Positions 27,755 through 59,149 of a DNA stretch of 64,000 bases are shown here, in pieces. Made by a program: the position numbers and the translations under genes. The stretch's first letter is position 1, and each line of letters begins with the position of its first letter. The DNA is from Eutreptiella sp. 'Long Island Sound 2002' (Eukaryota; Euglenozoa; Euglenophyceae; Eutreptiales; Eutreptiaceae): positions 145,293,767 through 145,357,766 of the forward strand of contig OZ038378.1 of the NCBI GenBank assembly GCA_964036045.1, given 5' to 3'. The notes beneath the pieces are model-generated. The model was not told the origin of the DNA. It saw nothing but the letters and a program-made list of their open reading frames with translations, and did no database searches.

Positions 27755-27890
27755 AGTGGACTATGGTGTGGGAACTAAGGGTTGTCTTTTTGAGAGATCC
27801 CAAGTTCAAACCCCACTCATCTAACTAAGTTAGAACAACCCCATATGATGCATGTGACATGGTTGTGACCACATGTACCACAGCCTATGC
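27755..27890 (+). repeat. SINE-like element, second family (copy 1)
   Basis: A head with TGAGAGATCCCAAGTTCAAA (B-box-like GTTCAAACCCC at 27813) and a body with CTAACTAAGT, GACATGGTTGTGACC and ACATGTACCACAGCC match 60784-60930. It ends a few bases before the LTR of element A at 27902. Confidence 0.6.
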
Positions 27891-27901
27891 TACCTCTTAA
27901 A

Positions 27902-29224
27902 TTCCCGCTTTGCATCTCGTTCCTCTATTTGAATAGTCTCTGTATTCTCTGGTTGCACTTGCTTTGGTGTTTGCTCCTGCTCCATTTTAGGTACTCAAAG
28001 ATTTCAGTGGAAAATAAAACCAGACCAAGACTCCAAGACGAGCAGAACTGGGATCAATAAAATAATAAAGAACTTGATGGGGCTGTACAATGAACAGACA
28101 AACAATGGGTGATGTTGGGCCTTGTGTTTGCTCGTATGCATGCATGTATGCATCAGGACCACTCAGGACTTCAGTCTGCACTCTGCAACAGTGAACAGTG
28201 ACTTCAGATCAGGGCAAAAATGGTATATCTCAGAAATCAGGCTTCTTGCAAAGATAGTCAAACAGACGAAACAAAAATGGTTTCCCAATGATAAAAAAAC
28301 ATAGAAAATCGCTTGAAATGTCTTCCAGGAATTTTCCGTAGCTCAGGAAACTGCAGAACTGAGTAGGAACTTCCCTCATGACCTCAGAACTCAGTAGGAA
28401 TTCCCATAGTGGAAGCGGCGCACTCACGGGGCAAAAATGGTCAAAAAATGCAATAGTCGTATGACCACTATATAGATGCGGAATTTTATGCTGAGTCTGA
28501 AAATCATATTGTATTTCTGTGAAAGCACCATATGTTGGAGAATAATGCAGATTACTGAACAGCTCAGTCTCAATGAGACTAGCCAAAAAAATAGATAAAG
28601 CAAAGGCCAACACCCATGTTGTGCTATATTACAAATAGTGTTCAAAGAAGAAACAATGGAATAACAAACAATAACTCATGGCATATAATACAATAGATAA
28701 ACCCTCTTTTGAAATAAAGTTAAGCCATTAAGTGTCTTTCACCTATATTGGAAGTGATCAAGCTCCATGGACAACATTTCCCCTAATGTCCCAACCAAAC
28801 TCTAATAAAGAATAATACCATTGCTCCATATGAAACCAATTTTGAGAAATTGTTGCTCATTCATGGACTTTTAACACTACCTCACGTGCCGGATCTGCCG
28901 GATTCTCATCATAGACTAAACTATCTTTTCAAATGTCAATCATCTTGGTAAGCCAACCTTTGTTCATATCTATGTTTATTGTCACAATCCTTCGTGCATT
29001 GATCATATTTCATTGTGGTATCCCACTTAGCTTTTTAAGACGTCACAATTTTTTCGTGTGCTATTAAGTTGTGGTAATATCATACATCTCAGAATAAGTA
29101 TAAAATTTGTCTACCCGATGGTGTTCCCCCAATGTCCCAACCGAACTCTAATAAAGAATAATACCATTGCTCCATATGGAACCAACATTTTGAGAAATTG
29201 TCGCTCATTCATGGACTTTTAACA
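27902..29224 (-). repeat. 3' LTR of element A
   Basis: 27902-29128 matches 48804-50047. On the minus strand the likely start is TGTTAAAAGTCC at 29224, directly preceded by the purine tract GGAAGGGG. The first ~95 bp (29224-29129) recur inside the LTR at 28876-28782, so this LTR holds an internal direct repeat. The end is GCGGGAA at 27902. The last ~80 bp encode the first Gag codons, as in the 5' LTR. No clear target-site duplication is found with the other end. Confidence 0.75.
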
Positions 29225-29236
29225 CCCCTTCCAGCC
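29225..29236 (-). other. Polypurine tract of element A
   Basis: On the minus strand GGCTGGAAGGGG immediately precedes TGTTAAAAG, as expected for the plus-strand primer of an LTR element. Confidence 0.65.
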
Positions 29237-30467
29237 TGAATACACGCTGTGTGTGAAGGCGTCGTCCAAGAATGACTCCCATGTTCCACGTCACCAACAG
29301 ATCTCACCTCAATCCGGCGTCAATGGGGTCCAATCTTACTAAAAATTGGGAGTAGAACCAACCATAAATGACCAAATGTAGACCAAGATGAGTCCTTCAA
29401 ACGGTCTCAGGATACTCCAGTGTCGTCCTCGTACGCTCTCGTAGTCGTGAACGATGTTCCTGGTCGCAGTAGTAAGAAATCCAACTCTGATCCAGACGCT
29501 TGACCCAATACATGTCACCAAATCCAATCAATCTGGGCAGATGAACACAGTAATTGAGCCATAAAATCAGTGAAGTAGGCACCCTAGATATCAGGCCAGT
29601 ACCTCAGCTGTCAGGTGGTCGTAGGTGTTGCTGGGGGCCTGCACTTGCCGCCATGAAACTCCAGCATATGAACTTGAGCTCCAGATCCCACATCATAAAT
29701 GTACCAGGATGCCCCAATCCAGCCACATGAATCAGCATGTCATAACACAAATGCCAGGGCATGAGGACTCAGCTCCTCGCTGCACATGTACAACGGCGCG
29801 TCCAGACTTCTAACGCGTTGCTTTACGTGTTCGCCTCAACATTTAGACCACTGGTTCAAGTCAGGTAGGTGCCCTGGGAATAACTCCCTCCAAAACCCCA
29901 AAACTCAACTTGTAGTTACTTAAACTTGGCTTCAAGTTGACCATAGGTGCTGCGAAGTAAAACCAGGACCAAGTGATATTCAAAGTACTTTCCAACCATG
30001 AACTAACCAAAAGATTTTGGGAACCTCAAGAACCCCAGGTTCCTTGATACTAGGCTCCCACCAACTCAACTCCCTCCAGAATTTGTCGTAACTCCAGAAC
30101 TTGCTGTTATGCCAGTCATATCCGCCTTTTAAAACTGTTGAATATTTGACCTTGAAACTTCTTCCAACTCCTTTCTTTCTGGTTCCCAAAATTGTGCTGC
30201 TGACCTTGCTGGCGGCGCGAGTGGCTCACAGCGCAGAAGGCCGGCAGTCCCTCCGAAATTGCCACGAGGAATAATGGAGACCAAATAAGGTCTGAGCTTT
30301 TCCATGCCTTAAACTGTACTTTTCTGGATATATCCTGAACTTCAATGATTGTTCTGCAGTATGAAGTGAAGTTCTGCAGGTTTTCACCTTGGTCCGCCAG
30401 TGGAAGCATAAGAAGCATGAAAACAGACTTCAAGGTACTCTTTCCTCCTCAGTATCTTGGTAATCAC
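29237..30467 (-). other. 3' untranslated region of element A
   Basis: Between the pol stop and the 3' LTR. No convincing ORF. Confidence 0.5.
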
Positions 30468-32852
30468 TCAAGGTAACCAGTCTTCTGCCATACCACCAAC
30501 TGTAGGCTCTTCTGTACGTCGCCGTTTGCCTCCGTGCTGCTGTGAGCCCTTCTTGGTGCTGACCTCTCCTGGTTCCTTGTTGTCCGTGGCAGTCTCTTCC
30601 TTGGGTTCCTCCGCGCTGGACTTCTTCTTCAGTGTGCTGCTGATCCGCCGAGCCTGCCTTAGCGCTGTGTCAAAGCAAGGTGCGTGTGCCAGATAGTAAT
30701 CCACAAAAACATGATTCAGCTTTCCATCATCATGCACGAATGCACGTACTGGTTCCCAAGTGCTCTCGCTCGTGCCATAGCCTTCCCACTTCGTTAAAAA
30801 GCGCCAGCCTTGTCTACATTGTCCTCTCAGGATCTGTTCGACGTGATAAGCTCCAGTTCTCTCCATCTCAGTCTGATTGTAGAATGGCGTATCCTGGTCA
30901 TTTGCCACGATGTCCTGTTCATCAGCCAACGCTGCTCGCTTGTCGTCATTCAGCATGTCTGTCTCTTCTTCTTTGATCGTGTTTTCGCCATAGGCATCCA
31001 CCAGCTCAAATGGGAAGCGCTTCACGAACTCAAAGGCAACAGGTACTTCGCCGCCCAAAGTAGGACTGCAACGCGCCGTAATACGGCCGCTGCTGACTCC
31101 AGTAACAAGGTAGGGACCATACAACATAACATCCTTCGTGGCACCCTTAGGTACCTCCAATTGCTTGAACCTCTTTCTCCTTCTATTGGCGCGTTCAAAC
31201 CGACTCGCTCGTCCTTTCCTCAAGTGGGCTTGAACAACTTGGGCAATCTTGTTTTGTTCTTTGACCCAGTCCTGCACTTGAACGTTGCCTTCGTGTAGAA
31301 AGGGTAGGTCCAAACGTAGAGTAGGCCTTCCATGGAAAACGTCTCCTCGTGAATAGCCAGATTTTCCTCTCTGCTTGTGGTTCATACATATGACCACCTG
31401 GTCGTTCAACTGGACCCAATTGCTGGGTTTAATACTCTGCCTCAGAATACGGAGCTCTTCCTGGTACTCATCATTCATACGCTCGCATAGTCCGTTTGAT
31501 TGTGGGCGGTAAGGTTGTGAGAACAATACTTCCACGCCCGTTGCAGCAAATACGTTGCAATACCAGCCATAGTCTCCCTTGAAGCGAATATCCTTGTCAC
31601 TGTGGATGCGAACAGGTGGGCCATAGAAACGAATCCAATGGTGTTTGATGAGCTTCAGAACGCCTTCTCCATTAATAGTCTTCTTGCATGGTACAACTTG
31701 GCAGAAAGCACTCAGAGCGTCCACAATCATCAAGGCATAGTCGTAGTTATGACACTTGGGTCTGTCAATGAAGTCCACATACAACAGTGCATTGACCATG
31801 TGTGGCAGTGGCAGGACGCCAAGTAGGCCTCGGTCGCTGGGTTGGTTCCGCTTGCTCGTGACAAACTCCTTGCATGTCCTGTGCATGTCCTCAATTTTCT
31901 GTGTCAACTCTGTGTCAGGTACGCGAGTGTGGAACATCTTCTCGAAAGCCCAGAGCCAGGAATCCGGTCCAGGATGAACGACAACATCGTGGGTCCACTG
32001 TAGGGCTGCGCCCAGCGCCTTCTTGGGTATGCATGTTTGCACTTCCTTCCTTATAATACCACTTGAGGATAGCCACCACAGCTCCTTGTCCACCAGTGCA
32101 TAGGATCCACCCCCTAGGGCTTTCAAACTATCTCCATACTCCTCCACATAGTTAGACTTCCGCAGAGAACTGAGTACTTCAGCTTTGCTCATCATGAGAT
32201 CCAAATGGACATCCATTTTCTGAAAAGCTTCTTGAGAAAGAGCTTCAGAGCTTGCAGAAATTTTCTCATCGAAATTTTCACGTGAGAGGCAATCACATAG
32301 CTCATTTTTCAGACCCGGTACCCTGTAGATGTTGAGCTTCAGCTGAGCGAGAAACGTCCACCAACGTCTGAGCTTTCGGTTTTCAGGAGGGGCCCCCTTG
32401 AGAAACGTCTCCGTGGACTCCGGATCACATAACCACACCGTGGAATTGCTGCCAAACAGTCGGCTTTGTCCGGAGATAAGCAGAATTCCAGAGAGTAATT
32501 CACGTTCATACGTGCTGTAGTTAGCTCTAGTTGAGGACCATTTCCAATTCCAGTGGCCAATGGGTACGAGATGGAATTCCTGCGAATCGTAGTTGTGCTT
32601 GAGTGAGCCGTCACGATTGACTCTGACTGTCCTCAGTTCATCCGCTATTCTCCTTGCAGCTGCTCCTGGAATTCGTTGCCACTGCAGAAGTGTGCCTCCG
32701 CCTCCCACAAGAGAAGCATCAGTGATGACCACGAACTCGCCGTCAGGCGCAGGTGTGCCCAACAGCCTCAGTGAACTCAGCTTTTCCTTGATCTCCTGAA
32801 ACTGAGCTTCATGCTCTGGTGTCCACTTCCAAGGTACAGTCTTCTTGGTCAA
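30468..32852 (-). pseudogene. Element A pol, 3' part: RNase H, integrase, chromodomain
   Basis: A 794-codon open segment. From the N-terminus it has an RNase H start (FVVITDASLVGG) and a zinc-binding and core integrase with LLYVDFID, IHSDKDIRF and GLCERMNDE supplying the D, D, E residues. It ends in a chromodomain at about residues 669-718 (WRFLTKWEGYG, STWEP) and a basic tail. This places A among chromodomain Ty3/gypsy elements. The segment is uninterrupted, but the RT part upstream joins it only after two frameshifts (32909-32860 region), so the full polyprotein cannot be made. Confidence 0.9.
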
Positions 32853-32908
32853 GTCCGTGAGAAGGTGGCTACTGTACGTGAAAAGTGGGGATGTGCCTCC
32901 TGTAAAAA

Positions 32909-34123
32909 TTACAGGATCCCAGGGAAACTTCTGATGTCCTTGACGCCACGGGTCTTGTCATCACGGATAGAAGCCTTCAAAATTGGGGCGACCTTTTCCT
33001 TCACAGGTCGCCACCATCTCCATCCAACTTGGAAACCCAAATGTTCAATTTCCTCCTGCATGAATTCAGATTTTTCCAACTTCACGCGGGTATTGCATTC
33101 TTTACAAGTGCGTAAAAACTCCTCCACCAAACGTAAATGGTCATCAGCGTCATCGGTCCCCAATAGCACATCATCTATATAGACCTCAATGACTGCTCCC
33201 TTCTTCAGTAGTGCCTGCACCGTAGGTTTGAGCTTCATAAGGGCCACGACCTGGTTCATGAGCTCCTGGAAAGTTGCCGGGGCATTCGTCAACCCAAACG
33301 GCATAACTTTCCATTTGAACACTTGATCATTAGGAGCAATAAATGCTGATAGACCCTGCGCTCGTTTTGTTAACTCCACTTGCCAGAAACCACTGCGCTT
33401 ATCCAATTTGGATTTGAAACGGCAATGAGCTGCTCTTTCCAGCGCCTGTTCCAAACACGGTAGACTCCCTGAATGTTTTTTCGTGAGTTTGTTCAACTTC
33501 CCGTAATGGACAACCAGTCTTTTTGCGTTGCTCCCTGATTTGTCTACCAAGAAGCATGGAGAGCAGTGTTTTGGATACTCTGCTTGCTCATATTTTTCCG
33601 GGAGGTCGGCTGCAATGCATTCAGTGATTTGACGCATTATCTCCTCACTGTCTGCCTTGCTAGCTGGAAATGGCTTTGAACGCACGGTGGTATTCTTGTG
33701 CCCATCCAGCAATTCCAAATCCATGGTAACCAACTTCTCACATGAACCATGTGCCATCAACGGTCCAAAAGCAACCTTCCTTCGACGTAAGACTTCTTGA
33801 ATTTCGGAAGGCAAAATTTTGATCTTCTCCTCGAAATCGTCTGCGGCTGCCAAATTTGATTTCCGATACTCATCCCTGGATACTGAGTAACACTCACTGA
33901 GTAGGGCCGAGACATCCAGATAAACGTCATTGCCATCCACGATAAAGCGGTCGTCATCCAGATATTGGTAGAACAAATCTGTTTCATCTCCGTCAACACT
34001 CCTGCCCGTGAACTTGTTGTAATGGCTCTTCGATCTGTCCTTGAGCTCTAGCATTTGTTGTTCCTCAGATATCTGGAAGATTGGGAGTTCAAAGAGCGTA
34101 AGTGGTCCTTCGAGACCGGCCAT
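32909..34123 (-). pseudogene. Element A pol: reverse transcriptase segment
   Basis: 404 codons of Ty3-type RT. It has KLDKRSGFWQVEL (motif A), MPFGLTNAPATFQ (motif B), YIDDVLLGTDD (motif C; codons at 33170-33181) and LGFQVGWRWWRP. The active-site Asp pair is intact. Reading breaks at RSFPGIL, where a frameshift leads to an open frame encoding the expected CNFYRRHI, and a second frameshift follows within 40 bp. A frameshift also separates it from the preceding segment near 34100. Confidence 0.9.
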
Positions 34124-35010
34124 CCGCGTGGGTTGGCAATTCTTGCCTTGTCCTCCTCGACTTGCATGGTCACGCCATACTCATGCATAGCATGTAGGGC
34201 CAGACACGACATGGTCAAATTTTGTACACCTCCTAGAACTGAATCTTTGAGATCGACTTCGTTCAGTAAATCCTTGATTCGGTCCGAATAATCTTCGTGA
34301 ATGCTTGGGAATGGGTCGTACTTCAGAGGCTGAGCGATATTGAGATCCGCCAGATAGCCGTCTTCACTGACTTCATCCCATTGCACTTCTGCAGGTTCTT
34401 CACTGACCTCTTCCCACTGAATGTCCACCTTGTCAACTTCAGCATCTCAAACGCCAGCATCCTGTTCTGCATCTGATTCCGTTGGAGGGTGAATTTCGGG
34501 GACTGCAGCCTCGTCCTTCGGTGTTGTTGCAGGTGTATCGTGCCCGTATCGCTTCAGTAAATCAGACCGGGTTAAACCATGGTTCACTCGATGGAGAAAC
34601 TTGACCACTTGGGGATTCAGTTCATCCAACGAAATATCACAATCATTGCCATCGATGAGGGATGCAATGCTTCCCCAGCGTGGCACTGGTAATGGGCTGG
34701 TCGCCCCATTTGGGAGATAGAGGGGTACATCTGGGATAGGTACACGAACCTTCGTCATGCGGTCCAAAAACGGTCGCCATGCGGCAGCTTCCCCGGTTTG
34801 GCCCCATTCAAGACAAATAACCACGACTTGCGCTCGGTCGAGCACGGCCTTGGTGACCATCTTCTCGAGGTGTGACCATGGTGGGTTGGCCCAGCATCAC
34901 TGAAACCCTTGCCAATGTAGGCATAACATGAATTGAGGGGGGTGCAATACAACCGTTCGGTATGATTTTTGGGGTTGGCGTACAAGTCCACGGTGGGTCT
35001 CAAGTCTCAA
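34048..35010 (-). pseudogene. Element A: Dam-like methyltransferase domain and linker to RT
   Basis: Broken frames spell VDLYANPKNHTERLYCT, then WANPPWSHLEKM (NPPW at 34876-34887), then VVVICLEWG and AAWRPFLDRM, followed by an acidic linker up to RT. The order 'D-L-Y-A-x-N, NPPW, hydrophobic strand with W' matches Dam-type N6-adenine methyltransferases, in which [DN]PP[YFW] is the catalytic motif. Element B has the same domain. Breaks: a frameshift around 34890-34920 and an in-frame TGA at 34447-34449 that would be CGA by one C-to-T change. Confidence 0.6.
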
Positions 35011-35198
35011 GTCGATGAGGACTTGCTCCCTCAGTGAAAGTAACAAACTGTAGGCTTCTCTCCGGGAAATTCTCAAAGATGATTGAGCAGGTGGCAATCT
35101 GTTTCCTCCTTCCTTCCGACAGGACTTCTCAGATAACGATACCAAGCATAATTCATCAGTCTCTGGATTCTTGACAATGAGCCTCGATGGAGTAAAAA

Positions 35199-35483
35199 TC
35201 AAAGCAGAATTGTCTTGGCGTTTTGACGGATGAAATTCATGCCCAGGCATACCTGAAAAGCTGAAGTCTCCATAACGATACAAACATGCGGAAGATTGAA
35301 ATTGCCCATGCACACATCCACGGATTTCTCTCCTTCACTGTACGTGTAGTGCCCATCTCTCACCTTGACTGCACAGTAACCCCTGCGATTCCGATCTGAC
35401 ACCAATGATGAAGCCACAATGGAATCGGTTGCACCAGTATCCAAAACAGCGTCACATATCCCCTCCTCCACAACCACAGGTAG
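35199..35483 (-). pseudogene. Element A protease
   Basis: A retropepsin-type aspartic protease: AVLDTGATDSIVA holds the catalytic Asp-Thr-Gly, followed by a hydrophobic strand and LGMNFIRQ. Gag's last codons lie upstream in the same frame behind a TGA followed by CTA (35481-35486 region). A frameshift near 35210 breaks the C-terminal side. Confidence 0.8.
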
Positions 35484-36596
35484 TCACAACGTGAGGCCGT
35501 CCTTGACAGCGGCTTGAAGCAGGTCCACGATTGTCTCAACCTCTGAAAATGCCAGATCTCTCTTCCTGTTCTTGGCTTGACTCTCAGAGTTCTCCTGCAT
35601 CGGTTTGGTCTCTGCTGAGGGGGCGCCAGCACCAGCACTTGCTGCTGAGGGGCCAGATGCATCTTTCTTTCTTGGGCCAGCTTTTGGTCCTTTTTGCGTC
35701 TTCCACCGTTTTTTGGGCTGCCTCCTCACTGAGACCGGATTGGATCAGGAAGGTCTTGAGTCGATCCTCTTTCTGTTTTCTTTGGATCTGAAAGCAATGA
35801 TCACTATAATGGTTCGTTTTGCCACAGTGTTTACACTGTATGCGGGCCTTGAATTCGGCGATCAACGCGTTGGGGTCCAACTGTCCTTTGCCTCCTCTGC
35901 CTCCTGGGCCTTTTCCTCTTCCCCGACCTTTTCCTTTATCAGAGCCTTTTCCTCCTTTGTCACCCTTGCCTTCTCTCTCAGAGACTCTTAGCTCTGCAAT
36001 CATTGAGTGCCATTGGGAGAGGAGTTCGGAGATGTCCGCCTTGGGAGCTGAACTTCCAGACGATGGTCCTCCAGAGAAAGAGGTGCCCTTTTCCTTATCT
36101 TTCTGCCTTTCCTGGTATCGACTCGAAGCAGTGCGCCCGGATGCAGAACCACGAGAAGCGGCAAGATGTTTAAAGCCGACAGAAAGTTGTGCGCGCTCCT
36201 TCATGACATCCTTCAATGAACCATAAGAGTGCATCCTTGCAAAAAGGTTATCGTCCTTCGTCCATTCAACGAAAAGTTTATCATTTTTTTTCGAGGAAGG
36301 TTCGATAAGCTTGCACTCCTCCGTCATAACTCCCTGGTTCAGGTTATCGAACAGCCTCTCCAGTGTTTCCAACAATTTGACCACTTGCTCCGGTTTCGGG
36401 TCGTAGAGTAAATGGGACACCTTCGAAATATCACCCAGAATTGAGAGGTCCGTCTCAAGCGTAGGATAGAGGTCTTGGAGCTTTTTCAGAAAGTCCTCAA
36501 AGCTTGTGGCCGTTTGGAGCAATTTGGAGATTCCTTCTTGAAGTTCAGGATCCTTGATGCCCTGAACGATGAGGTTAGCTTTCACCTGATCTTCGG
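35484..36596 (-). pseudogene. Element A gag, 3' part (left of the B insertion)
   Basis: It continues the capsid-like region from the other side of B (DQVKANLIVQGIKDPE), then a Ser/Gly/Lys-rich basic stretch and a CCHC zinc knuckle (CKHCGKTNHYSDHC). One frameshift near 35680 moves the frame to the one ending at the TGA before the protease. Gag binds the element RNA and forms the particle. The gene is interrupted by B at 36597. Confidence 0.85.
36592..36596. repeat. Target-site duplication of element B, left copy (TTCGG)
   Basis: TTCGG here and at 47652-47656 flanks B. With B and one copy removed the A gag reads GKAKAEDQVKANLIV without a break. Confidence 0.85.
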
Positions 36597-37309
36597 AGTA
36601 AGAAAAAGTCACTACCATGTCTTTCTTGGAGGGCTAGATCCAGGCTAAGCCCCCCTTAAAACCCTTTGTTGATGCTAAGACAAACTTAAGTGTTTTTATC
36701 ACTCTTTTGTGGCCTAAAGTACACTTTCTCAAAGTAACTAGGGTTGTGACCCTAGCCCCCCCCCATGAAGTTCACCCCTACCACTCAACTGAGCGGAGGT
36801 ACCTTCCTTCATGGAGGACATACCAAAATAAACCAGGCATTTCATGCTTGTTGGCCTTGGAGGTTAAGCCTAAGTGGTCTCCCACCCCAAGACCCCTATA
36901 CTCAATTGTTTCTACCACTGATTGTGGTCCTACTTTGTAACTGTTTCTGAATTCAGTTGCTTGGCCAAGTCATTTTCTGTGTGGTCCTGACATCTATGCC
37001 CCTCAGTCCTAACCAGCACCATTTCACCCAAAAGAGTGCACATGAAGTGCCTATTGCAACCTCTGAGGCTAGAGTCTGACCAATTTTCATATAAAACCTT
37101 TTGTATTATCCATTTGTGATTGAATCTATGTGCATATACCTGCTTTGTCTATCTGCAGCCCTTCTGTGTTACACTGGATTCCAAAACCAATCATTGATTC
37201 GATCCACATTCAGTCCTTGCTCTACTTGCTGCTTTGGTTTGGGGTTTTCAACTACAAAACCTGCAGGAATACATCAAAAGACCTAGGGCATAATTCAAGG
37301 ACATCTTTC
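36597..37309 (+). repeat. 5' LTR of element B
   Basis: 713 bp, starting AGTAAGAAAAAG and ending ACATCTTTC. It differs from the 3' copy at only a handful of positions (for example 36728 region TTTCTC/TTGCTC, 36827 region AATAAACC/AAAAAATC). It does not show the usual TG...CA ends. Confidence 0.9.
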
Positions 37310-37322
37310 CGGTAGCAGAGAC
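37310..37322 (+). other. Primer-binding site of element B
   Basis: CGGTAGCAGAGAC directly follows the LTR and matches the 3' end of an initiator Met tRNA (TGGTAGCAGAG type) with one mismatch at the first base. Confidence 0.65.
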
Positions 37323-37391
37323 AGTCCCTTGTGACCTTTTGAACCGACCCTGAGAAGAAGTGCAGAACAAAAGCTCAACAACAAGTCCATC

Positions 37392-39566
37392 ATGTCCACG
37401 CCAAGCGTCAGGACCTGGCCTATCCGAACTGTCCAAGTACAAATGGGCAGCGTGGTCCACCCAATGAGTGAACCACCACACCGAGCTCCACATCATCTCA
37501 GTGGCGCATCTTGGTCCCAAGGAGATCCAGAACGCAGAAGGGCGGAAGAGAATAAAGGCCTTACCACCGAGGCCTTAGCAGCACACGGTGGAGACAGCTT
37601 CAGTCACCTCCACAGACGTGTGGCTGCTTCAGTATCAAGATCCAATTGTCCAGCTTCATCCTCAACTGCCATTGAAGGACCTGAGGAGTATGAGAAGCTG
37701 AAGCAGAAGATGGATGAGTACATCATGCATGAGGAGTACTATAAATCCATCCGTGGGGAAGATGGAGAGGAGCCACTGGCTGTACATGGATCCAGACCAC
37801 GTACAGATCTAGGGTCCTACGCACACTCTGGTCCACCGTCCACTGCATCCCTGCCAAGACGACTAAGACCTGAGTATCCAACCCCAAGGGCTCCCGAAGT
37901 GGGTGCAACACGAGTTGAAGAACATCATCCAAGGCCAACCTACGGTGCCCTGGATCACACGGCCGAGCTGCTGGCCAAATTCCTGTCTGGATCAGAAGAC
38001 CCAGATGTGACGGCCTTATCGGAGGCCATTAATGCTAAACTGGGTATTGCAGAACCCTTACCCAAGCCTGAGTTCCTCTCTCTCTCTCCAGGGCTGAGTA
38101 CCCTGGCCGAAGATCTCAAGAGATCGAGGGTCTCAAGGCTGTTGCCTAAGGTTACCTGCCCCAGCCCCTTCCACCCCCGTGCCAGGACTGTGCCTATGGC
38201 GGATCTACAGGACGTGCCTGTCACAGAGAGTGAGAGAAGAGGGCTGTCAGCCCTGGCCCCTCTTGCCGGCGTGTCGCCATCAGGCCTAACTCCGGGGGGT
38301 GGGAAGACGGGCAGACCAATTGCCCAGGCGAACATCCAGCTGGAACTGCCGGAGTTCGACCCCAAAAATCTGCCTGAATGGGCAGAAGAATTTGCAGAGT
38401 TCCTTTTGTTGACTGGCCAATCCCATGTGGATGTGGCCACCAAATGTTCTCTGCTAAAACGCTCATGCAAAAAGAAATTTTTGCAAAAACAGGTCAAACA
38501 GATTGTGAAAACCTGTTCTACCTGGGCAGAGGTACTCCTGAGGTTAGAGAAAACATTTCCAGTCTATGAGACTGACCTCAGCGTACGCACACAGATCGAG
38601 GAGCTACCTATGCTCCCGGAGTTTCCATCCGCTGCGCGAATTTCTGAGTATGTGTGCGACTTGGAGTACTTATTTTCGAGGATGAATGTGGGCTCCTACG
38701 GAGCCACTGAGTCCCACCTGTGGCTCATGAGTAAGATCCCCCAGCGTACGTGCAATGATTGCCGCTCCACCTCTGAGAGGAAGAGCAGGACCCACTCGTA
38801 CGATACACTGGTGGATCTCTTGATTGAGCTAGCTCTTGAGAGAGAAAACGACTCCCACATGGAGAAGTTCCTCAAGAAGCATTTGGGACGAGGTGGTACC
38901 CCTACCCCCGAACGTGGCGAAGGGAAGGGGCATAAAAATCCCACAAACACTAACCAGGGAGGTGGTAAAGGGAGGGGCAACCTACGTGCCATGAACGAGG
39001 TTCCAACTGATGCAGGCACACCCCCCCTGTTTTACTGCCGACCTGTCAATGACAAGGGGGGACCTTGTCATGCCTCCGACTGCGATCTCCGCAGTGGCTG
39101 TATGCTGCAGATGAAACGTCAGCAGCATACTAAAGATGGGAAAACTGTGACCCATCAGGACCACTTCAGGTGTACCATCACCTGTGGTTACTGTGGCAAA
39201 CGTCGTCACTATGAGGACGAAAGCCACATCAAGAAACGCGAGAGTGACAAACTCAAGCGTCAGGAGGCGGAGCGCCAGAAGACCCAGACGCCCGCCAGAA
39301 ATCCCCCGAATGGGGATAAAGGTAAAGGAGGTGGCAAGGGGGGTGGCAAAACTGGACCCCCTAACCCCCAGAGGCGCTCATCAGCGCCCGTTGCTACACC
39401 TACTCCTGCTGCCACACCCGCTCCTGCCGCAGGTGTCCCCCAGAAGCGCCCCCAAGGGGATAACGCTACCCCTGAGGGGAATAATTCTAAGAAGAGGCGC
39501 TTGGCCTGGATGGCCAAGTCCCTCATGGCTGCAGGAGTGGATGTGAAATTCCCTGATGAGGAATAG
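37392..39566 (+). CDS. Element B Gag polyprotein
   Basis: 724 aa. A Pro/Ser-rich N-terminal region is followed by a capsid-like helical part (about residues 310-520; NIQLELPEFDPKNLPEWAEE and downstream helices). Then come a Gly/Lys-rich stretch and a Cys cluster with a zinc knuckle of C-x2-C-x4-H-x5-H type (C598, C601, H606, H612) instead of the usual CCHC. The Lys/Gly/Pro/Ala-rich tail probably binds RNA. It ends at TAG (39564-39566) followed by GGGGGC, and the same frame runs on into protease, so stop-codon readthrough is a plausible way to make Gag-Pro. The start ATG is the first in the frame after a TGA at 37332. Confidence 0.88.
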   Translation: MSTPSVRTWPIRTVQVQMGSVVHPMSEPPHRAPHHLSGASWSQGDPERRRAEENKGLTTEALAAHGGDSFSHLHRRVAASVSRSNCPASSSTAIEGPEEYEKLKQKMDEYIMHEEYYKSIRGEDGEEPLAVHGSRPRTDLGSYAHSGPPSTASLPRRLRPEYPTPRAPEVGATRVEEHHPRPTYGALDHTAELLAKFLSGSEDPDVTALSEAINAKLGIAEPLPKPEFLSLSPGLSTLAEDLKRSRVSRLLPKVTCPSPFHPRARTVPMADLQDVPVTESERRGLSALAPLAGVSPSGLTPGGGKTGRPIAQANIQLELPEFDPKNLPEWAEEFAEFLLLTGQSHVDVATKCSLLKRSCKKKFLQKQVKQIVKTCSTWAEVLLRLEKTFPVYETDLSVRTQIEELPMLPEFPSAARISEYVCDLEYLFSRMNVGSYGATESHLWLMSKIPQRTCNDCRSTSERKSRTHSYDTLVDLLIELALERENDSHMEKFLKKHLGRGGTPTPERGEGKGHKNPTNTNQGGGKGRGNLRAMNEVPTDAGTPPLFYCRPVNDKGGPCHASDCDLRSGCMLQMKRQQHTKDGKTVTHQDHFRCTITCGYCGKRRHYEDESHIKKRESDKLKRQEAERQKTQTPARNPPNGDKGKGGGKGGGKTGPPNPQRRSSAPVATPTPAATPAPAAGVPQKRPQGDNATPEGNNSKKRRLAWMAKSLMAAGVDVKFPDEE

Positions 39567-40154
39567 GGGGGCGGCTCCGAAGAGGAGGACTTGGTTTTCT
39601 GGATCCTCCTGAAAATCGGGGATCAGGTTTTTGGAGCACCGCTTGATACCGGTGCAACACTTTCCATAGTGGCCCGGCGCCTGCTTAAAACTTTCAGGAA
39701 AACTAAGACCGTGGCCATAAGAGTAGGGGATGGGCGTACCATCCATTCGTTGGGGGGGGTCGATGTGACCATATGTCTGGGCGACGAAACCGTGACCCAA
39801 CACTGCAGAGTGTTGGACACTGACGCCTTTGACATCGTCATTGGCACTGACTTTCTAAGAAGAACCCCCCAGGTTAAAATGCTGTCCCTACAGCGTCCTT
39901 ACTCTTTGCACTGCGACTTTGGCAGTGGGCTATTCTCCGTTCCTTTGGAGCTGTCAGGACGAAAAGAGTCTGGGCTGCGCTACGCAGCCAAGACGAACTA
40001 TCGTACTGAAAACTACCAACTGGCCCGTCATGTTCTCGAAAATGGACTGGCGGCCCTTCAGGTAAACCTGGATGAGATCCAGGTGGATGAGATCCAGGTG
40101 GAATTGTTTGCGAGCCAACAACAGCACATCATGCAGTTGTACTGCTCGAAATAA
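39567..40154 (+). CDS. Element B protease and start of the methyltransferase-like domain
   Basis: In frame with gag behind the amber codon. After an acidic SEEED stretch it encodes a retropepsin-like protease (APLDTGATLSIVARR with DTGA at 39645-39656; IGTDFLRR as the C-terminal strand). Its tail (VELFASQQQHIMQLYCS) aligns with the VDLYANPKNHTERLYCT part of the Dam-like domain of element A. A TAA at 40152-40154, directly before an ATG in the same frame, splits that domain. No ATG occurs at the start, so expression depends on readthrough or an unusual start. The TAA may be a mutation of CAA or AAA. Confidence 0.75.
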   Translation, partial: GGGSEEEDLVFWILLKIGDQVFGAPLDTGATLSIVARRLLKTFRKTKTVAIRVGDGRTIHSLGGVDVTICLGDETVTQHCRVLDTDAFDIVIGTDFLRRTPQVKMLSLQRPYSLHCDFGSGLFSVPLELSGRKESGLRYAAKTNYRTENYQLARHVLENGLAALQVNLDEIQVDEIQVELFASQQQHIMQLYCSK

Positions 40155-43100
40155 ATGAACAATGCTTTCCGTTTCTTCTGGAAAGCAATGGGCCTGGCGT
40201 ATGCTAACCCTCCCTTCTCCCTGCTCGCGAAGGTTCTAACCAAGATCGCTTATGAGGGAGGAAGGGTTGTTATGTGCACCCCTGACTGGGGTTGCTCTGG
40301 TGAACATGCTTACTGGCGCCGCATGCTTGACCGAATGACCGTGGGAAGAGTGCAACTCCCCGACGGCCCCATCTATGTGCCTGAGGACTCAGACACAGCT
40401 ATGCAGGCCCCTGAGTGGGCCAGTTTCCTGTCCATCATCGATGGATCTCTCAATCCTGTACCCCTGTGTGACCTGGACCAGGTGCTACTAAAAGAGGTCA
40501 TGGCCGAAAATCGTGGCCTGACCCTTTATGATCTCAAAAATCGATCTCCTGAGCACCTATCTGCCACACTTACAGGGTGTGAGTCTCCTGATGACTATCT
40601 GGAACCTGCAGCTGTAAAAGAGGATGCTGACGACCAACTGTCTGAGATCGCCAGCACTATTCCCTCTGTTGATCCCAGCTGTGTTGACCTAAAACATAGT
40701 GCTTTCCTGGCCCAGCTGTTGCTAGAGGAGGTAGATCTAGAGTCAACCTCTGAACCCGCTTCCTCTGTTGGGAAACCAGTGCTACACATGCAGCCTGTGC
40801 ACACAGGTGAACCCGTGGCCCGGAGTACTGATGCTCTGGCACGGCCTGCTGCTAATAACATGCCCTTGTCTGAGCATGACACTCAAGAACTCCGCCGGCT
40901 GTTGTACCTGAAGGCCGAAGGTATTGAGCGCCAAGAGCGGCTGCAATACCTCAGACAGACCTGGAAATACTCCATCTGGTCTGAGGAGGACGATGAGTCC
41001 TATACGCTGCCTGATCCTGAGATACCTCTAGTGTATTCTCTACACTATGGGCAGCAATGTCCCCCTGAGTGGGACGATGGTACTGTACCTGCCGAAACTG
41101 CTGATCGGCATAAAAAGAAAGAACATGGAAAAAGCAACCTCCATGCTGAGGAGGATTTCCTTCAGAAAGTCGAGAGTCTTAACCTTGACCCCCGCCTGAA
41201 GAAACTGCTTATAACCTATGAGGAGGTGTTCGGCGCCTTGCCACCTCCCCTATCTTGTAAAAAACTGGTCCAGATGGACCTGAAATTGAAACCAGAATTT
41301 GAAAAGACGCGAGTGAGGCGTCGTCCCTATCCCGCTCCACAGGAACAGGTTGAAGAAATCGAGCGCCAGATCCAAGAATGCATTGATGCTGGCCTCGTTG
41401 AAGAGTATAAACATGGGGACTATCCCCATCACTGCAGCCCCTGTTTCCTTGTTGCTAAACCAGGGTCGACTGCTCTACGTCTTGTTGTAGACTATGGTGA
41501 GGTCAACAAGAAAACCCAGAACCACTCAGGGAGTTTTCCTAACATGGAAAACACCCTGGAGCGTATTGCCAAATGCAGGTATAAGACCAAAATGGACAAA
41601 CGCTCTGGTTTCTGGCAGGTTGACCTAACCGCCGCAGCTCAGGAGCTGCTTGCCTTTATAACCCCTAAGGGTCGTGTCTTCAAGTGGAAGGTTATGCCTT
41701 TCGGGGTGGCTAACGCCCCAGCGCTCTTCCAGGAGCTTATGAACAAAATTTTGTACATACTGAGGCGCAGGCCTCTAGTACAAGAGTTGATTTCTCGGGG
41801 TGCAGAAATGGAGGCTCACATCGAAGACGTGAGTTTGGGTACTAATACCAAAGAGGACCATGTCCTTCTCCTCCGTGAATTCTTCACTGTCTGTCAAGAA
41901 AACCATCTCCGAATCAAACTCGAAAAATGTGAGTTTATGAAGGGGGAGATGGAGTATTTGGGTTTCGACGTGGGGTATGGCTGGTGGAAACCAGCCGCGT
42001 CTAAGATGCAGCCCCTACAGGACATGCAGATTCGCGATGACCCTAAGAAGGGTCTACACGATGTGAGGAGTTTTGTGGGCGCCTGTAATTTCTATCGGCG
42101 TCACATCCACAATTTCACTTACTCCTCTGCACCCCTCACTGACCTGATGAAGAAAACTACTCCCTGGAGGTGGACCTCCAGAGAGGAAGAGTGTTTCCAG
42201 GAGTTGAAGAAGAAGATTGCCTCCTCCAACTGCCTGGAAGTGCCCCGCCCTGAGGGCGAGATAGTCCTGATCACTGATGCCAGTGATGTAGGGGGGGGAG
42301 GTACGATCTACCAATGGCAGGAGCTTAACCCCGCTGAACTAACCCACTGCCATTATCGTACTACTGGACTAAACCGTGATGGTTCGTTGAAACATGACTA
42401 TCCTACCAGTGAGTGGCGGCTGGTGCCACTGGGACACTGGAACTGGAAATGGAACCAAGCGCGTTCCAACTACAGCACCTATGACCAGGAACTCCTGGCC
42501 GGTATGTTGGTGCTATCTTCACAATCCCGACTCCTGGGATCTAACCCTATTGTCTGGCTGTGTGACCAGGAGCCTGTGAAGTCCTTTCAAAAGGGCCCAC
42601 CACCAGAAAAAGCGAAGCTAAAACGGTGGTGGACTTACCTGAGCCAGTTCAGGCTGACAGTACATCATATCCCCGGGTTTAAGAATGAACTGTCTGACTA
42701 TATATCGCGCAACAACTTCGATGCGCTTATTGGTGAGAGCTCTGAGGCGCTCGCCAAAGAGGGTTTCCAGCGTATGGATGTCCAGCTTGACCTGTCCATG
42801 CGCACTGCTGGAATCCTGGAGGGTTGGAGTCTAACCGACTATCAGTCAGAGTATGAAGAAATTCTCCAAACCCTCAGCACTGGTCTCGAACCCCGTGTCA
42901 TTGACGGGCACCAGTGGTATAAAAACAATCAGTACCTCTTCTACGAGGACCGAATTGTGGTGCCTGAGGCACGACTGGATGGGTGCCTACAGTGGTCCCA
43001 TCTCAGTTCTGGTCACACTGGCGCTAATCGCTCAGTGGACTTCTTCCGTGAGTGTTTCTACTCCAGTCTAACCCTGACTGAACTGAGGTCGCGTATGCAG

Positions 43101-44384
43101 ACCATTGTGGATGCTTGTGGCTGTCATGCCAGCAAGCAGAGCGACAGTAGGGATAGGGGCCTGATCTCCAGCTTACTCATACCCTATTGTGCTAACTCTC
43201 TTCTCTACGTGGATTACATCCACGGCCTACCACGCATTGGCGGCTATGATAGTTGCCTCGTGGTCACCTGTGGTCTATCTCGCTTCACCCGTGTGTTCCC
43301 TTGCAATAAGAAAATCACAGGTGAGCAGACTGTAAAAATGTTGGTCGAACAATGGTTCGAACCCTATGGAGCACCTAAACAGGTGCACTCTGATGAAGAT
43401 GTACGCATCCGCAGTGACACTGGGTGGTACAAACGAGTGCTAAATGCCCTCAACGTGGAGGTAACCACAGGTGTGCCCTATACTCACACGTCTAACCCTC
43501 TCTGTGAGAGACAGAACCGTGTGGTGGAGCAAAACCTAAGAATCCTGATGAAACAGGAGCGCACCAAGGACTGGGTACGCCTAGTGCCCTGGGCAGTTCT
43601 GTCCATGAACTCACAGCGGAGCTCTTCTACGGGTTTCACCCCCCACGAACTGTTCCATGGAGGACGACCTGCTTGGTTCTTCAAAACCCCCTTCCCTGAG
43701 GACTTCAAGAGCCCTGTGGGAGACTGGCTGGAACACAAGCAGCCTCTGGCTAACCAGGCTGGTACTAACCTGAGGCACATTCGTGACCGCGAACAGAGCC
43801 GACGGAACCGCCTACGGCGACCTGCCAGGTTCAAGATTGGTGACCTTGTTTTGGTACACCATTCACGCCTACCCTCCTGGCCACGTAACTGCCTACAGGA
43901 CCCTTACTTTGGACCCTATCGTATCATCAGGATAGATGGATCCAGGATCCATGTCAGGTGCAGTCCACGTCTAGGTGGTGAACTGCTGTGTGCACCTAAG
44001 CAGTTGAGGCACTATCACTCCCCTGACGACTTGTCTTGGGATGAGTGGCGCCTCAGCGACAGTGAGATGGAACGTATAGACCTAGAGAACGCTGCCAGTC
44101 CAGAGGAGGCAGACGAACTCGAAGAGATGACTGCCGATGAGATGGCAGTCGATGGTTACTACGTGGTTGCAGGTATTGCTCGCCACGAGTATAAACAGGG
44201 CTGGAAATTCCTTACCCTGTGGGATGGCTATGGGTTGTCTGAGGCGACCTGGGAACCTATGTCAGCCTTCATACAACCAGATGGGAGTATCAACCCCATC
44301 TTCCGCACTTACCTCGTTGAGAACAACGAGGGGCAGCTCCTAACCCGTGCTGAGACTATGTCCCAGCGTAAGAAGCGAAACTAA
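40155..44384 (+). CDS. Element B Pol: methyltransferase-like, RT, RNase H, integrase, chromodomain
   Basis: 1409 codons. Residues 1-110 carry the second half of the Dam-like domain (YANPPFSLLAKVL, NPPF at residues 18-21, then VVMCTPDWG). RT follows with MDKRSGFWQVDL and MPFGVANAPALFQ, but motif C is HIED (residues 555-558) where YIDD is expected, replacing the tyrosine and the first catalytic Asp. RNase H begins at LITDASDVGG (D708). Integrase has the triad D1020, D1080, E1118 (YVDYIHG, HSDEDVR, LCERQNR). A chromodomain occupies about 1335-1384 (WKFLTLWDGYG, ATWEP). Apart from the RT motif the ORF is intact. After the TAA the frame stays open for 76 more codons. Confidence 0.92.
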   Translation: MNNAFRFFWKAMGLAYANPPFSLLAKVLTKIAYEGGRVVMCTPDWGCSGEHAYWRRMLDRMTVGRVQLPDGPIYVPEDSDTAMQAPEWASFLSIIDGSLNPVPLCDLDQVLLKEVMAENRGLTLYDLKNRSPEHLSATLTGCESPDDYLEPAAVKEDADDQLSEIASTIPSVDPSCVDLKHSAFLAQLLLEEVDLESTSEPASSVGKPVLHMQPVHTGEPVARSTDALARPAANNMPLSEHDTQELRRLLYLKAEGIERQERLQYLRQTWKYSIWSEEDDESYTLPDPEIPLVYSLHYGQQCPPEWDDGTVPAETADRHKKKEHGKSNLHAEEDFLQKVESLNLDPRLKKLLITYEEVFGALPPPLSCKKLVQMDLKLKPEFEKTRVRRRPYPAPQEQVEEIERQIQECIDAGLVEEYKHGDYPHHCSPCFLVAKPGSTALRLVVDYGEVNKKTQNHSGSFPNMENTLERIAKCRYKTKMDKRSGFWQVDLTAAAQELLAFITPKGRVFKWKVMPFGVANAPALFQELMNKILYILRRRPLVQELISRGAEMEAHIEDVSLGTNTKEDHVLLLREFFTVCQENHLRIKLEKCEFMKGEMEYLGFDVGYGWWKPAASKMQPLQDMQIRDDPKKGLHDVRSFVGACNFYRRHIHNFTYSSAPLTDLMKKTTPWRWTSREEECFQELKKKIASSNCLEVPRPEGEIVLITDASDVGGGGTIYQWQELNPAELTHCHYRTTGLNRDGSLKHDYPTSEWRLVPLGHWNWKWNQARSNYSTYDQELLAGMLVLSSQSRLLGSNPIVWLCDQEPVKSFQKGPPPEKAKLKRWWTYLSQFRLTVHHIPGFKNELSDYISRNNFDALIGESSEALAKEGFQRMDVQLDLSMRTAGILEGWSLTDYQSEYEEILQTLSTGLEPRVIDGHQWYKNNQYLFYEDRIVVPEARLDGCLQWSHLSSGHTGANRSVDFFRECFYSSLTLTELRSRMQTIVDACGCHASKQSDSRDRGLISSLLIPYCANSLLYVDYIHGLPRIGGYDSCLVVTCGLSRFTRVFPCNKKITGEQTVKMLVEQWFEPYGAPKQVHSDEDVRIRSDTGWYKRVLNALNVEVTTGVPYTHTSNPLCERQNRVVEQNLRILMKQERTKDWVRLVPWAVLSMNSQRSSSTGFTPHELFHGGRPAWFFKTPFPEDFKSPVGDWLEHKQPLANQAGTNLRHIRDREQSRRNRLRRPARFKIGDLVLVHHSRLPSWPRNCLQDPYFGPYRIIRIDGSRIHVRCSPRLGGELLCAPKQLRHYHSPDDLSWDEWRLSDSEMERIDLENAASPEEADELEEMTADEMAVDGYYVVAGIARHEYKQGWKFLTLWDGYGLSEATWEPMSAFIQPDGSINPIFRTYLVENNEGQLLTRAETMSQRKKRN

Positions 44385-46930
44385 TTGCCCTGTGTCAGTC
44401 TACTGACAGGTGCAGTGAGCACTCTTCTGACCCTGTCTGTGCCCTGCAGACCCATGCCTATGGTTTCCAGCGTGAGCCAGGTGGCCGCTTATCAAGATTG
44501 CAGCCACCCAGCGAGTGTTTGCCTTGTTGACCATGTGTTGCATGGGTACTGCCCTAATGTAATGACCTTGGTGAGCCAACGAAGAACGGTGGCTTACTAC
44601 ACCAGGGGGGATTGACAAGCAAGGTGTTATGAGGCAAGGTGTGTCTTCCCTCCTTGGCAACAAGCGAGCCCACAGTTAGGACGCCTGACTGGTCCAGACC
44701 CATGGGGTTCTACCCTTCCTTACAGGGTTTACCATACCCCTAAGTGTGCTATGTATGTCTGTATGTGTCTCACTTCTCTCCCCAGCGTGGCTCCCGGAGA
44801 CCGGGCTTCGCTGACGTCGGACCGAAGGTCCTAATCAGGTACTATTACCACTCCTATGGCGCCCAATTTCTGTGCTGGCGCCTATCCTTGGGGGTAAACG
44901 GCAAAAGCCCTACCTACTAAGAGGGGAGGGGTGGCCAAGTGTGCTAAGGGCATACAAAACGCCCATTTTTGCTACAGGCCAAAAGCTAACGCACTCCCCT
45001 GCCCACGAGGAAAAGCACGCGGGACAGGAGACACCACTACACTACACTCACTAACGCCAGCACCGGCCTTCGAAGGCAGGGTGAGCACTCATCACTTGCA
45101 CTCACCTCCTGCCAGGCCTGCTGACCCTAACCCCTACACACGCTACTGGGTGCTGCTGTCGATGTTCACGCAGGCCCTAATGGCCCTCCTGTGAAGAGGA
45201 CAAGAGAACACAGCGCTCCTAAGCAGCTGTGGCCTATCAGGGGACGCCACAACGCGTTTCCCCTGCTGGGGCTAGGAGGGAAGGGGTGCTCTCGTTGCGT
45301 GCACAGCGCAGATGTCGTGGAGGTCGAACTGCCCTCGCCAGGACTGGCTGAGGCACAGTGATTTGATTTGTGATCAGCGCCCCTGTTTTGCTGGGGCAGA
45401 AAAATGGTAGCCGCCGAAGGCAGCTGCTGCGTGCACCAATCACCCTTAACCTCTCCCACCTGTACAAAAGAGGCAGATGAAGGGGTGTTTGCGACGGAGG
45501 AACCAAGCCACACTCCAGGTATTATACCCTTCTCAGTGTGACCTATAATACACTGTTCGCAAACACGCTGACGGATCAGCTACCCCTGTCAAGCAAGCAA
45601 GCTTTAAGAAACTCCTCTGGTTCTCTTAAAGAACGTACCGAGGAGCCTCTGAGTAACCTAAACAAGGTTTACCGTGCGCAATTCGCGTGGCCTACCCTTT
45701 AATGCATCATGTGCACGCAGGGAAGGGAGGCTGAACCACTGACTCTACCAGGAGGTGAGCTCCTCCTGGGCTAACCTACCTTACTCACCATGCATCGTGT
45801 GAATGCCAAATTGGAACGAACACGAAACAAACCTAAGCGTTTTAAGCAACTCAACTTTAACGCCATGGCCGCACACGAACAAACACTTTTTGTCTTACCT
45901 GTGAAGAAGAAAAAAAGGGTGAATTTCGGATACAGGTAAAGCGTCACAGCGTGTGGATGCCTCGATTAGGCACATGCATCGCGAGCACAGCGCATATTCT
46001 AACCGTACGTGCACGCTGCGCGCTCCATTCGCATCACATACCTTTCATTCCTGCTTTTACCTGTGCAGAGCACGAGAGGAGAACACCGGACCCCCCAACG
46101 AGCACAGCGTTGACAACCCTAACGTTTTGACGAAACAACCAACACGAACGCAATGCGTGAGTGTGAAGTGACACAGACATACCTGAGAGACGGGTTGTTG
46201 AACTGGTCTGTGGTGTGGGCTGATTTTGAATGCTTGACTCTGAAGTTTATAAAAATTTTTGATGCAACTGTGCAAAAATTTTCTTTAAAACTTTAAAAAC
46301 TACGGCTCATACCTTCTTTTCCAAAAGCCGTTTACGCTTGCGCAACCCTTTTCTTGGCGTCCGCTTCCTTTGCGCTTGTCTGCGACTTTAAGTTATGTGT
46401 AAAAATGACGATTTCCCGCGTGGTTTCGTCGATTTTCAACGATTTCACTTGCTATACCGCAACCCCTTCCACTAAACCGCAGGAATCACTCCCTGCTGGT
46501 TACATTTTCTATTTTTTTCAGCTCCTGGGGGTTTGTGCCCTCCATTAGGAGTATTGCTCCACCCTGGCCTTTGGTCAGGACGTTTACTAAAACGCTGTTT
46601 ATACAGCGATAGCCGTCCGCATTAGAGCGTTCGACTGTACCCTAGTGGGCAAGCACATTGGCTCTAGGGAGGGAGTCCTGGGTTCAATTCCCACTACCCC
46701 CAAACTTTCTCCAAAGGTTTTCGCCGCACGCCGGCGACTTTTGAGGAATGCCCCTTCGAAGGGACATCATTCACGGTACATTACACTGTTTTTCAAGGGT
46801 CCCTACAGTGTGATAGGCTTCTTTGAAGTGATGAGGATGTTTTTGGTAAGTTTAATGCATTTTTTTGAGGTAATTTTGGGAATATTTGAGCCTTTTTCCT
46901 TGGTCCTACTAGCTTAGCTAACTAGTACTC
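44385..46930 (+). other. Long 3' non-coding region of element B
   Basis: About 2.5 kb between pol and the 3' LTR. Only short ORFs are present and no envelope-like or other conserved protein is visible. It includes an in-frame 76-codon continuation of pol up to TGA at 44613. A tRNA-like segment lies at 46634-46702. Confidence 0.6.
46634..46702 (+). repeat. tRNA-like segment in the 3' region of element B
   Basis: CCTAGTGGGCAAGC (A-box-like) and GGGTTCAATTCCCA (B box with short T-stem) are spaced as in a tRNA, and resemble the head of the SINE-like copies at 27755 and 60784. The acceptor stem is not convincing, so I call it tRNA-derived rather than a tRNA gene. Confidence 0.45.
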
Positions 46931-46940
46931 CAGGGGGGAG
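46931..46940 (+). other. Polypurine tract of element B
   Basis: CAGGGGGGAG abuts the 3' LTR. Confidence 0.75.
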
Positions 46941-47650
46941 TAAGAAAAAGTCACTACCATGTCTTTCTTGGAGGGCTAGATCCAGGCTAAGCCCCCCTTA
47001 AAACCCTTTGTTGATGCTAAGACAAACTTAAGTGTTTTTATCACTCTTTTGTGGCCTAAAGTACACTTGCTCAAAGTAACTAGGGTTGTGACCCTAGCCC
47101 CCCCCATGAAGTTCACCCCTACCACTCAACTGAGCGGAGGTACCTTCCTTCATGGAGGACATACCAAAAAAAATCAGGCATTTCATGCTTGTTGGCCTTG
47201 GAGGTTAAGCCTAAGTGGTCTCCCACCCCAAGACCCCTATACTCAATTGTTTCTACCACTTATTGTGGTCCTACTTTGTAACTGTTTCTGAATTCAGTTG
47301 CTTGGCCAAGTCATTTTCTGTGTGGTCCTGACATCTATGCCCCTCAGTCCTAACCAGCACCGTTTCACCCAAAAGAGTGCACATGAAGTGCCTATTGCAA
47401 CCTCTGAGGCTAGAGTCTGACCAATGTTCATATAAAACCTTTTGTATTATCCATTTGTGATTGAATCTATGTGCATATACCTGCTTTGTCTATCTGCAGC
47501 CCTTCTGTGTTACACTGGATTCCAAAACCAATCATTGATTCGATCCACATTCAGTCCTTGCTCTACTTGCTGCTTTGGTTTGGGGTTTTCAACTACAAAA
47601 CCTGCAGGAATACATCAAAAGACCTAGGGCATAATTCAAGGACATCTTTC
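46939..47650 (+). repeat. 3' LTR of element B
   Basis: 712 bp, about 99% identical by eye to 36597-37309. It is followed by TTTCGG, which contains the TTCGG target duplication (47652-47656). Confidence 0.9.
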
Positions 47651-47652
47651 TT

Positions 47653-58035: not shown

Positions 58036-58042
58036 GGCTTGC

Positions 58043-59110: not shown

Positions 59111-59149
59111 GGGGGGTTGCTCCCGCACCCTCCGGCCCCTGTCCGGACC

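Follow-up and report, generated by a model that had tools for sequence, protein, structure and literature searches.

A Dam-like methyltransferase domain between protease and reverse transcriptase in Ty3-type retrotransposons of the euglenid Eutreptiella

Two nested Ty3-type retrotransposons, here called elements A and B, lie in a stretch of 64,000 nucleotides from the genome of Eutreptiella sp. 'Long Island Sound 2002' (contig OZ038378.1, positions 145,293,767 to 145,357,766; hereafter the window). Both encode, between the protease and the reverse transcriptase (RT) of Pol, a domain of approximately 142 residues, and the data as a whole are best explained if this domain is a Dam-type (PF05869-like) N6-adenine methyltransferase module, a reading that we consider likely. 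Sequence comparisons establish its homology to phage Dam methylases, its position before RT and its recurrence in two deeply diverged groups of Ty3 elements. A first-pass annotation of the window had proposed a methyltransferase-like segment in both elements, and the analysis described here supports that interpretation as largely right.

Results

The domain in the window copies of elements A and B

The catalytic motif of the Dam family is [DNS]PP[YFW]. As first annotated, element A carries NPPW and element B carries NPPF (residues 18–21 of an open reading frame (ORF) of 1409 residues), in each case followed by a strand that ends in tryptophan (VVVICLEW in A, VVMCTPDW in B). The upstream motif D-L/V-x-A-x-N, which had been proposed for both elements, is present in A (D-L-Y-A-N, then N) but not in B (E-L-F-A-S, then H), and the two have [DE]-L-[FY]-A in common. 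Neither copy in the window is intact: the upstream half of the A domain is found in another reading frame, and the copy is therefore frameshifted within the domain, and B is interrupted by one in-frame stop codon. Intact domains of A-type (from L049) and B-type (P0001) are 43% identical over 116 residues and align with a score of 271, whereas none of 200 shuffles scored above 52; their likeness is therefore more than chance.

We searched the genome (2.28 Gb) with several queries, in each case scoring 150 places from a larger list of first-look candidates. With the C-terminal half of the B domain as query, all 150 scored places matched at 99–100%, and an open frame of 1600 residues was present in 54 of the 150 (hand count), compared with 1409 in the window. 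Intact copies therefore exist, and the stop codon is a defect of the window copy. The domain had also been described as standing just before RT; RT is indeed the next domain, but the two are not adjacent, as the end of the domain and the RT match of Pfam lie approximately 340 residues apart in B and some 150 apart in lineage C (see below).

Homology to Dam and related lineages

The Dam family PF05869 matched 27 of 38 aligned sequences at E values up to 1 (best 9.7e-5), whereas the next commonest family matched 2; the 38 include the A piece from the window. The window pieces and every B-type copy scanned stayed under the curated cut-off of 28.1 bits. Dam was matched over the cut-off, and clearly, by two further lineages (C and D), and also by genome matches that overlap A-type copies. 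When the genome was searched with PF05869, 149 of the 150 scored places (of 3813 candidates) matched, 103 of them over the cut-off alone and 6 more together with neighbours in frame (hand count); a control search of 14 genomes with the same profile gave matches only in E. coli. Four of those over the cut-off lie on the same strand as an A-type copy and overlap it (C5:88601032, C4:148688868, C7:65374969, and C8:20098598). Another two, which are unclassified (C1:57750771 and C11:58900433), align to roughly the stretch of the profile that B-type copies cover.

The best thirty loci of this search (L009–L038) define lineage C: 29 of the 30 can be aligned without gaps to the lineage C domain and therefore belong to one family. 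Seven of its open frames were scanned and gave Dam E values of 8.6e-11 to 1.2e-7, with RT as the next domain in the five that reach it. Two fuller frames contain Dam, RT, RNase H and an integrase zinc-binding domain over cut-off, together with a weak integrase core, and no chromodomain was listed in these two frames, which may end before it. The order RT-RNase H-integrase and a best PDB match of the RT to Ty3-G were obtained for this lineage as well. Lineage D is represented by one locus (Dam E 5.3e-9, followed by RT), for which the reading extends up to RT, and no protease Pfam match was obtained in lineages C and D. A relative of element B, L074, encodes protease, Dam (E 9.9e-5, under cut-off), RT and RNase H in a single ORF of 913 residues.

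Retention of the NPP motif in other family members, anticipated by the first-pass annotation, holds for part of them. The family motif is present as NPPW in A and as NPPF in B and in the P0007-, P0008- and D-type lineages, but P0011 and P0012 have N-P-R-F, and N-A-P-F occurs in all 26 lineage C loci with a frame that fits the motif search (the other 4 of the 30 did not fit in the frame read). Lineage C thus has N-A-P-F in place of N-P-P-F, yet reaches the top Dam scores in the genome.

A profile comparison joined the A/B group with lineage C over 141 columns (probability 95.4, E 1.7e-8). The lineage C domain itself matched the phage T1 Dam methylase in a tblastn search (E 8e-5, 30.7% identity over 52% of the query). 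Nothing relevant was found for the window pieces in PHROGs, or for one window piece and five relatives in NCBIfam. With query A1, 66 pattern matches in IMG/VR viral contigs yielded no confirmed relative, and the sequence search of PDB gave a single unrelated match (E 1.6). The third protein search covered the best 120 of 1256 proteins at E up to 1.

Predicted fold

A structural model built from the 38-sequence alignment (pLDDT 80.2, pTM 0.80) has a Rossmann methyltransferase fold. Its best Foldseek matches are phage DNA N-6-adenine-methyltransferases (E 5.8e-6, probability 1.00, TM about 0.5), in agreement with the fold proposed at first. Among the 50 rows listed by VIA-align (Z at most 6.4), 45 are methyltransferases by title and 5 have titles without a chain name. 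An earlier model from 12 sequences (pLDDT 63.8) gave weak matches only and was replaced by the one described here.

Abundance, divergence and selection

First-look candidates numbered 29,534 for the B half-domain and 27,896 for the A half-domain (150 scored each); these numbers are loose, the two sets may overlap and they are not copy numbers, but they indicate a very large family. The RTs fall into two groups, with 57–94% mutual identity among A, B, P0007, P0008, and L074, 53% between C and D, and 27–35% between the groups. Domain alignment scores split likewise (at least 206 within the A/B group, 301 between C and D, at most 149 between groups), and domain identity between groups is 24–37%. 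As groups whose RTs are only 27–35% identical both keep the domain before RT, the association looks old. The simplest explanation is one early capture, but there may have been independent captures.

Between B (L002) and the L073/L074 subfamily, with synonymous sites near saturation, the ratio of nonsynonymous to synonymous substitution rates (dN/dS) is 0.11–0.13 in the domain (aligned with no gaps), 0.17–0.19 in the linker and 0.02–0.05 in RT. For the decaying copies L073 and L074, compared with each other, it is 0.51–0.69, and 0.82 over a slightly longer domain stretch. The linker had been considered as an unconstrained control and is partly unusable as such, being itself constrained. Variants present in at least three loci show synonymous to nonsynonymous counts of 19:5 in C and 15:7 in A, compared with 54:103 and 57:120, respectively, for singletons (Fisher p 7e-5 and 0.0017); as the loci were picked by Dam score or A similarity and the copies are not independent, these p-values are indicative only. 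Stop variants (C, 7 singleton; A, 4 singleton and 1 shared) and variants found in two copies (A, 20 synonymous, 18 nonsynonymous and 1 stop) were excluded from these counts. The pooled ratio of nonsynonymous to synonymous polymorphism (pN/pS) is 0.29 in C and 0.37 in A. Judged from these substitution patterns, the domain is under purifying selection.

Structure of the elements and other features of the window

The assignment of A and B to Ty3/gypsy follows from their long terminal repeats (LTRs), the order protease-RT-RNase H-integrase and, for B, a best PDB match of the RT to Ty3-G (Table 1). DIRS elements have a tyrosine recombinase and a methyltransferase after RNase H; A and B have an integrase core, and the methyltransferase-like domain precedes RT. 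Chromodomain matches (PF00385) are below the cut-off of 25.1 bits in both elements.

Table 1. Features of elements A and B in the window.
Feature	Position	Strand	Remarks
Element A (Ty3-type), LTR to LTR	27884..50047	-	interrupted by element B; LTRs 27884-29128 and 48784-50047, 94.7% identical
A, ORF with RNase H, integrase core and chromodomain	30471..32957	-	core 27.0 bits (cut-off 32.6); PF00385 E 1.8e-4, 21.8 bits (cut-off 25.1)
A, RT	33026..33541	-	PF00078 E 5.4e-28
A, methyltransferase-like domain, C-terminal part	34590..34896	-	NPPW at 34876-34887; PF05869 E 0.28 at the place of NPPW
A, methyltransferase-like domain, N-terminal part	about 34944..35006	-	VDLYANPKNHTERLYC; frame differs from rest of domain; alone without Pfam match
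Element B (Ty3-type)	36595..47650	+	within presumed gag region of A; LTRs 36595-37309 and 46937-47650, 99.0% identical
B, aspartic protease	39612..39863	+	PF13975 E 2.3e-6
B, methyltransferase-like domain, N-terminal part	40003..40151	+	TENYQL...VELFAS...LYCSK; VELFASQQQHIMQLYC; terminates at in-frame TAA 40152-40154
B, methyltransferase-like domain, C-terminal part	40155..40445	+	NPPF at 40206-40217; this piece alone without PF05869 match
B, RT	41457..41969	+	PF00078 E 2.3e-26; top PDB match Ty3-G Gag-Pol E 1.1e-54
B, RNase H	42171..42650	+	PF17919, PF17917
B, integrase core	43188..43484	+	PF00665 E 1.1e-5, under cut-off (26.1 against 32.6 bits); solved retroviral integrases E 1.3e-11
B, possible chromodomain	44175..44264	+	weak, E 0.051; PF00385 13.9 bits

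As element B is nested inside element A, it is the younger of the two, and the nesting provides a relative date for the two insertions. The sequence TTCGG, present at 36592-36596 and again at 47652-47656, is consistent with a 5-bp target-site duplication of element B, with further short matches at other offsets and LTR ends accurate to approximately 2 bases.

Pieces of a different retroelement, which by eye appear to be near-copies of one element, were found on the reverse strand at 52772-53851 and 57208-59398. An RT match (PF00078 E 1.6e-12) lies at 58046-59398, and weak RNase H-like matches lie at 52772-53851 and 57208-58086. The region 54001-56000 has a GC content of up to 75%, a strong strand asymmetry (AT skew 0.44) and long ORFs in several frames, and is perhaps a repeat block. 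A 20-mer of the Euglena spliced leader has 5,203 exact matches in the genome (2587 + 2616), compared with 0 for the reversed control; these suggest genes for the leader and, perhaps, numerous leader-tagged sequences that arose by retrocopying. The dinoflagellate spliced leader had 0 matches in the window at up to 3 mismatches and 0 exact matches genome-wide. By this one marker the host is most probably a euglenid, and a dinoflagellate host, considered at first, was rejected.

Discussion

Proposed function

In the Dam family, a [DE]xxA strand and loop hold S-adenosylmethionine, and NPP[FW] holds the flipped target adenine. By analogy, the [DE]xxA strand and loop of the Ty3 domain would bind S-adenosylmethionine and its NPP[FW] would accept the flipped adenine. 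As the family chemistry assigns cofactor and adenine binding to these motifs, enzymatic activity is probable in the lineages that have NPP[FW]. From its place in Pol, between protease and RT, the module would be expected to be produced in equimolar amounts with RT and to enter the particle, where it might accompany RT. The use that we hold most likely is that it methylates adenines of the element's own new complementary DNA or nuclear copies. Such methylation could conceivably protect the element from host degradation or silencing, or aid transcription after integration.

A wider proposal combines three claims: that a phage-type Dam entered Ty3 Pol before the split of clades with approximately 30% RT identity, that the enzyme is active and places N6-methyladenine on retroelement DNA, and that through a very high copy number it is a main source of this base in the genome of this euglenid. 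Taken together, we regard these claims as improbable.

Alternative interpretations

The domain may be a methyltransferase that acts on RNA, placing N6-methyladenosine (m6A) on the genomic or messenger RNA of the element and thereby aiding translation, packaging or evasion. The top PDB rows are RNA N6-adenine enzymes (KsgA, PCIF1, and Erm, with METTL5 lower), but PF05869 may be without a solved structure, in which case RNA enzymes would rank first by default. According to PMC9289625, an enzyme encoded by an orchid Ty3/Gypsy element does the reverse and removes m6A from RNA in vitro; RNA methylation is therefore of consequence for some Ty3 elements. By sequence, the nearest relatives found are nevertheless phage DNA methyltransferases, and we consider an RNA substrate unlikely, while taking it seriously.

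Somewhat more doubtful is a degenerate methyltransferase that has been kept for another job, such as nucleic acid binding, spacing of protease and RT, or assistance to RT. The altered catalytic motifs in lineages C (NAPF) and P0011/P0012 (NPRF) would fit such a role, as would a dN/dS well above that of RT. On the other hand, ribosomal RNA adenine methyltransferases use N-x-P-[FY], and NAPF may therefore still work. In addition, lineages whose RT identity falls as low as 30% (A, B and the P0007-, P0008- and D-types) all retain NPP[FW]. For DIRS elements, too, PMC3266345 calls the function of the methyltransferase domain unknown, which is also in line with a degenerate domain.

A chance occurrence of NPP in an ordinary linker, to which the weak Pfam signal in the window pieces could be ascribed (E 0.28 in A, none in B), is spoken against so strongly by the whole-domain homology, the fold match and the relatives' Dam matches over the curated cut-off that we give it almost no weight.

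Comparison with known systems

No Dam domain in an integrase-bearing Ty3 element is described among the papers listed in searches of the open-licence literature, which included few subscription papers and no preprints. This agrees with the original remark that the domain is not standard for Ty3 elements. A Dam-type methyltransferase in these elements would make them a candidate source of adenine methylation for a lineage not mentioned in a 2025 survey of N6-methyladenine (PMC12695648; no 'Euglen' in the main text). As element B looks abundant and recent, methylation on its new copies could be sought directly.

The closest free-standing counterparts are the phage Dam proteins of PF05869 (phage T1 Dam, Edwardsiella phage eiAU). 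The D/E-x-x-A strand, its spacing to N-P-P-[FYW]-S, and the downstream K, P, and W align with the Ty3 domain. The retroelement form, however, is part of a polyprotein, and in the alignment the GRLxF segment of the free-standing phage proteins is missing from it.

Among retroelements, captured DNA methyltransferases have been described in SymbioLINE-Dnmt, SymbioDIRS-Dnmt3, and KnitGypsy-Dnmt3, which belong to LINE (long interspersed nuclear element), DIRS and Gypsy-like elements, respectively, and one of which has a Gypsy domain composition. According to PMC5890265, these are cytosine C5 enzymes, structurally unrelated to Dam-like enzymes, in dinoflagellate and charophyte hosts. The orchid Gypsy element with AlkB shares with A and B a Ty3/Gypsy accessory enzyme for N6-methyladenine chemistry, but according to PMC9289625 this is an RNA eraser in an additional ORF, whereas the Ty3 domain is a predicted writer inside Pol. 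Sola1 of Ectocarpus is also a mobile element encoding a DNA methyltransferase, a ParB-methyltransferase protein predicted to make N4-methylcytosine or N6-methyladenine; according to PMC12477816 it is a DNA transposon, with the ParB-fused enzyme in a separate gene.

DIRS1-like elements resemble A and B in that their Pol combines RT and RNase H with a methyltransferase of the same family, and PMC3266345 and PMC3783388 place their RT/RNase H near Ty3/Gypsy. The same sources describe the PF05869 methyltransferase of DIRS elements after RNase H (order RT-RNase H-methyltransferase), together with a tyrosine recombinase, whereas A and B have LTRs and the order protease-methyltransferase-RT-RNase H-integrase. 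The elements described here offer a direct approach to the question of what the DIRS methyltransferase domain does, and they add integrase-using Ty3 elements to the retroelements with an adenine methyltransferase, with a new position of the domain before RT.

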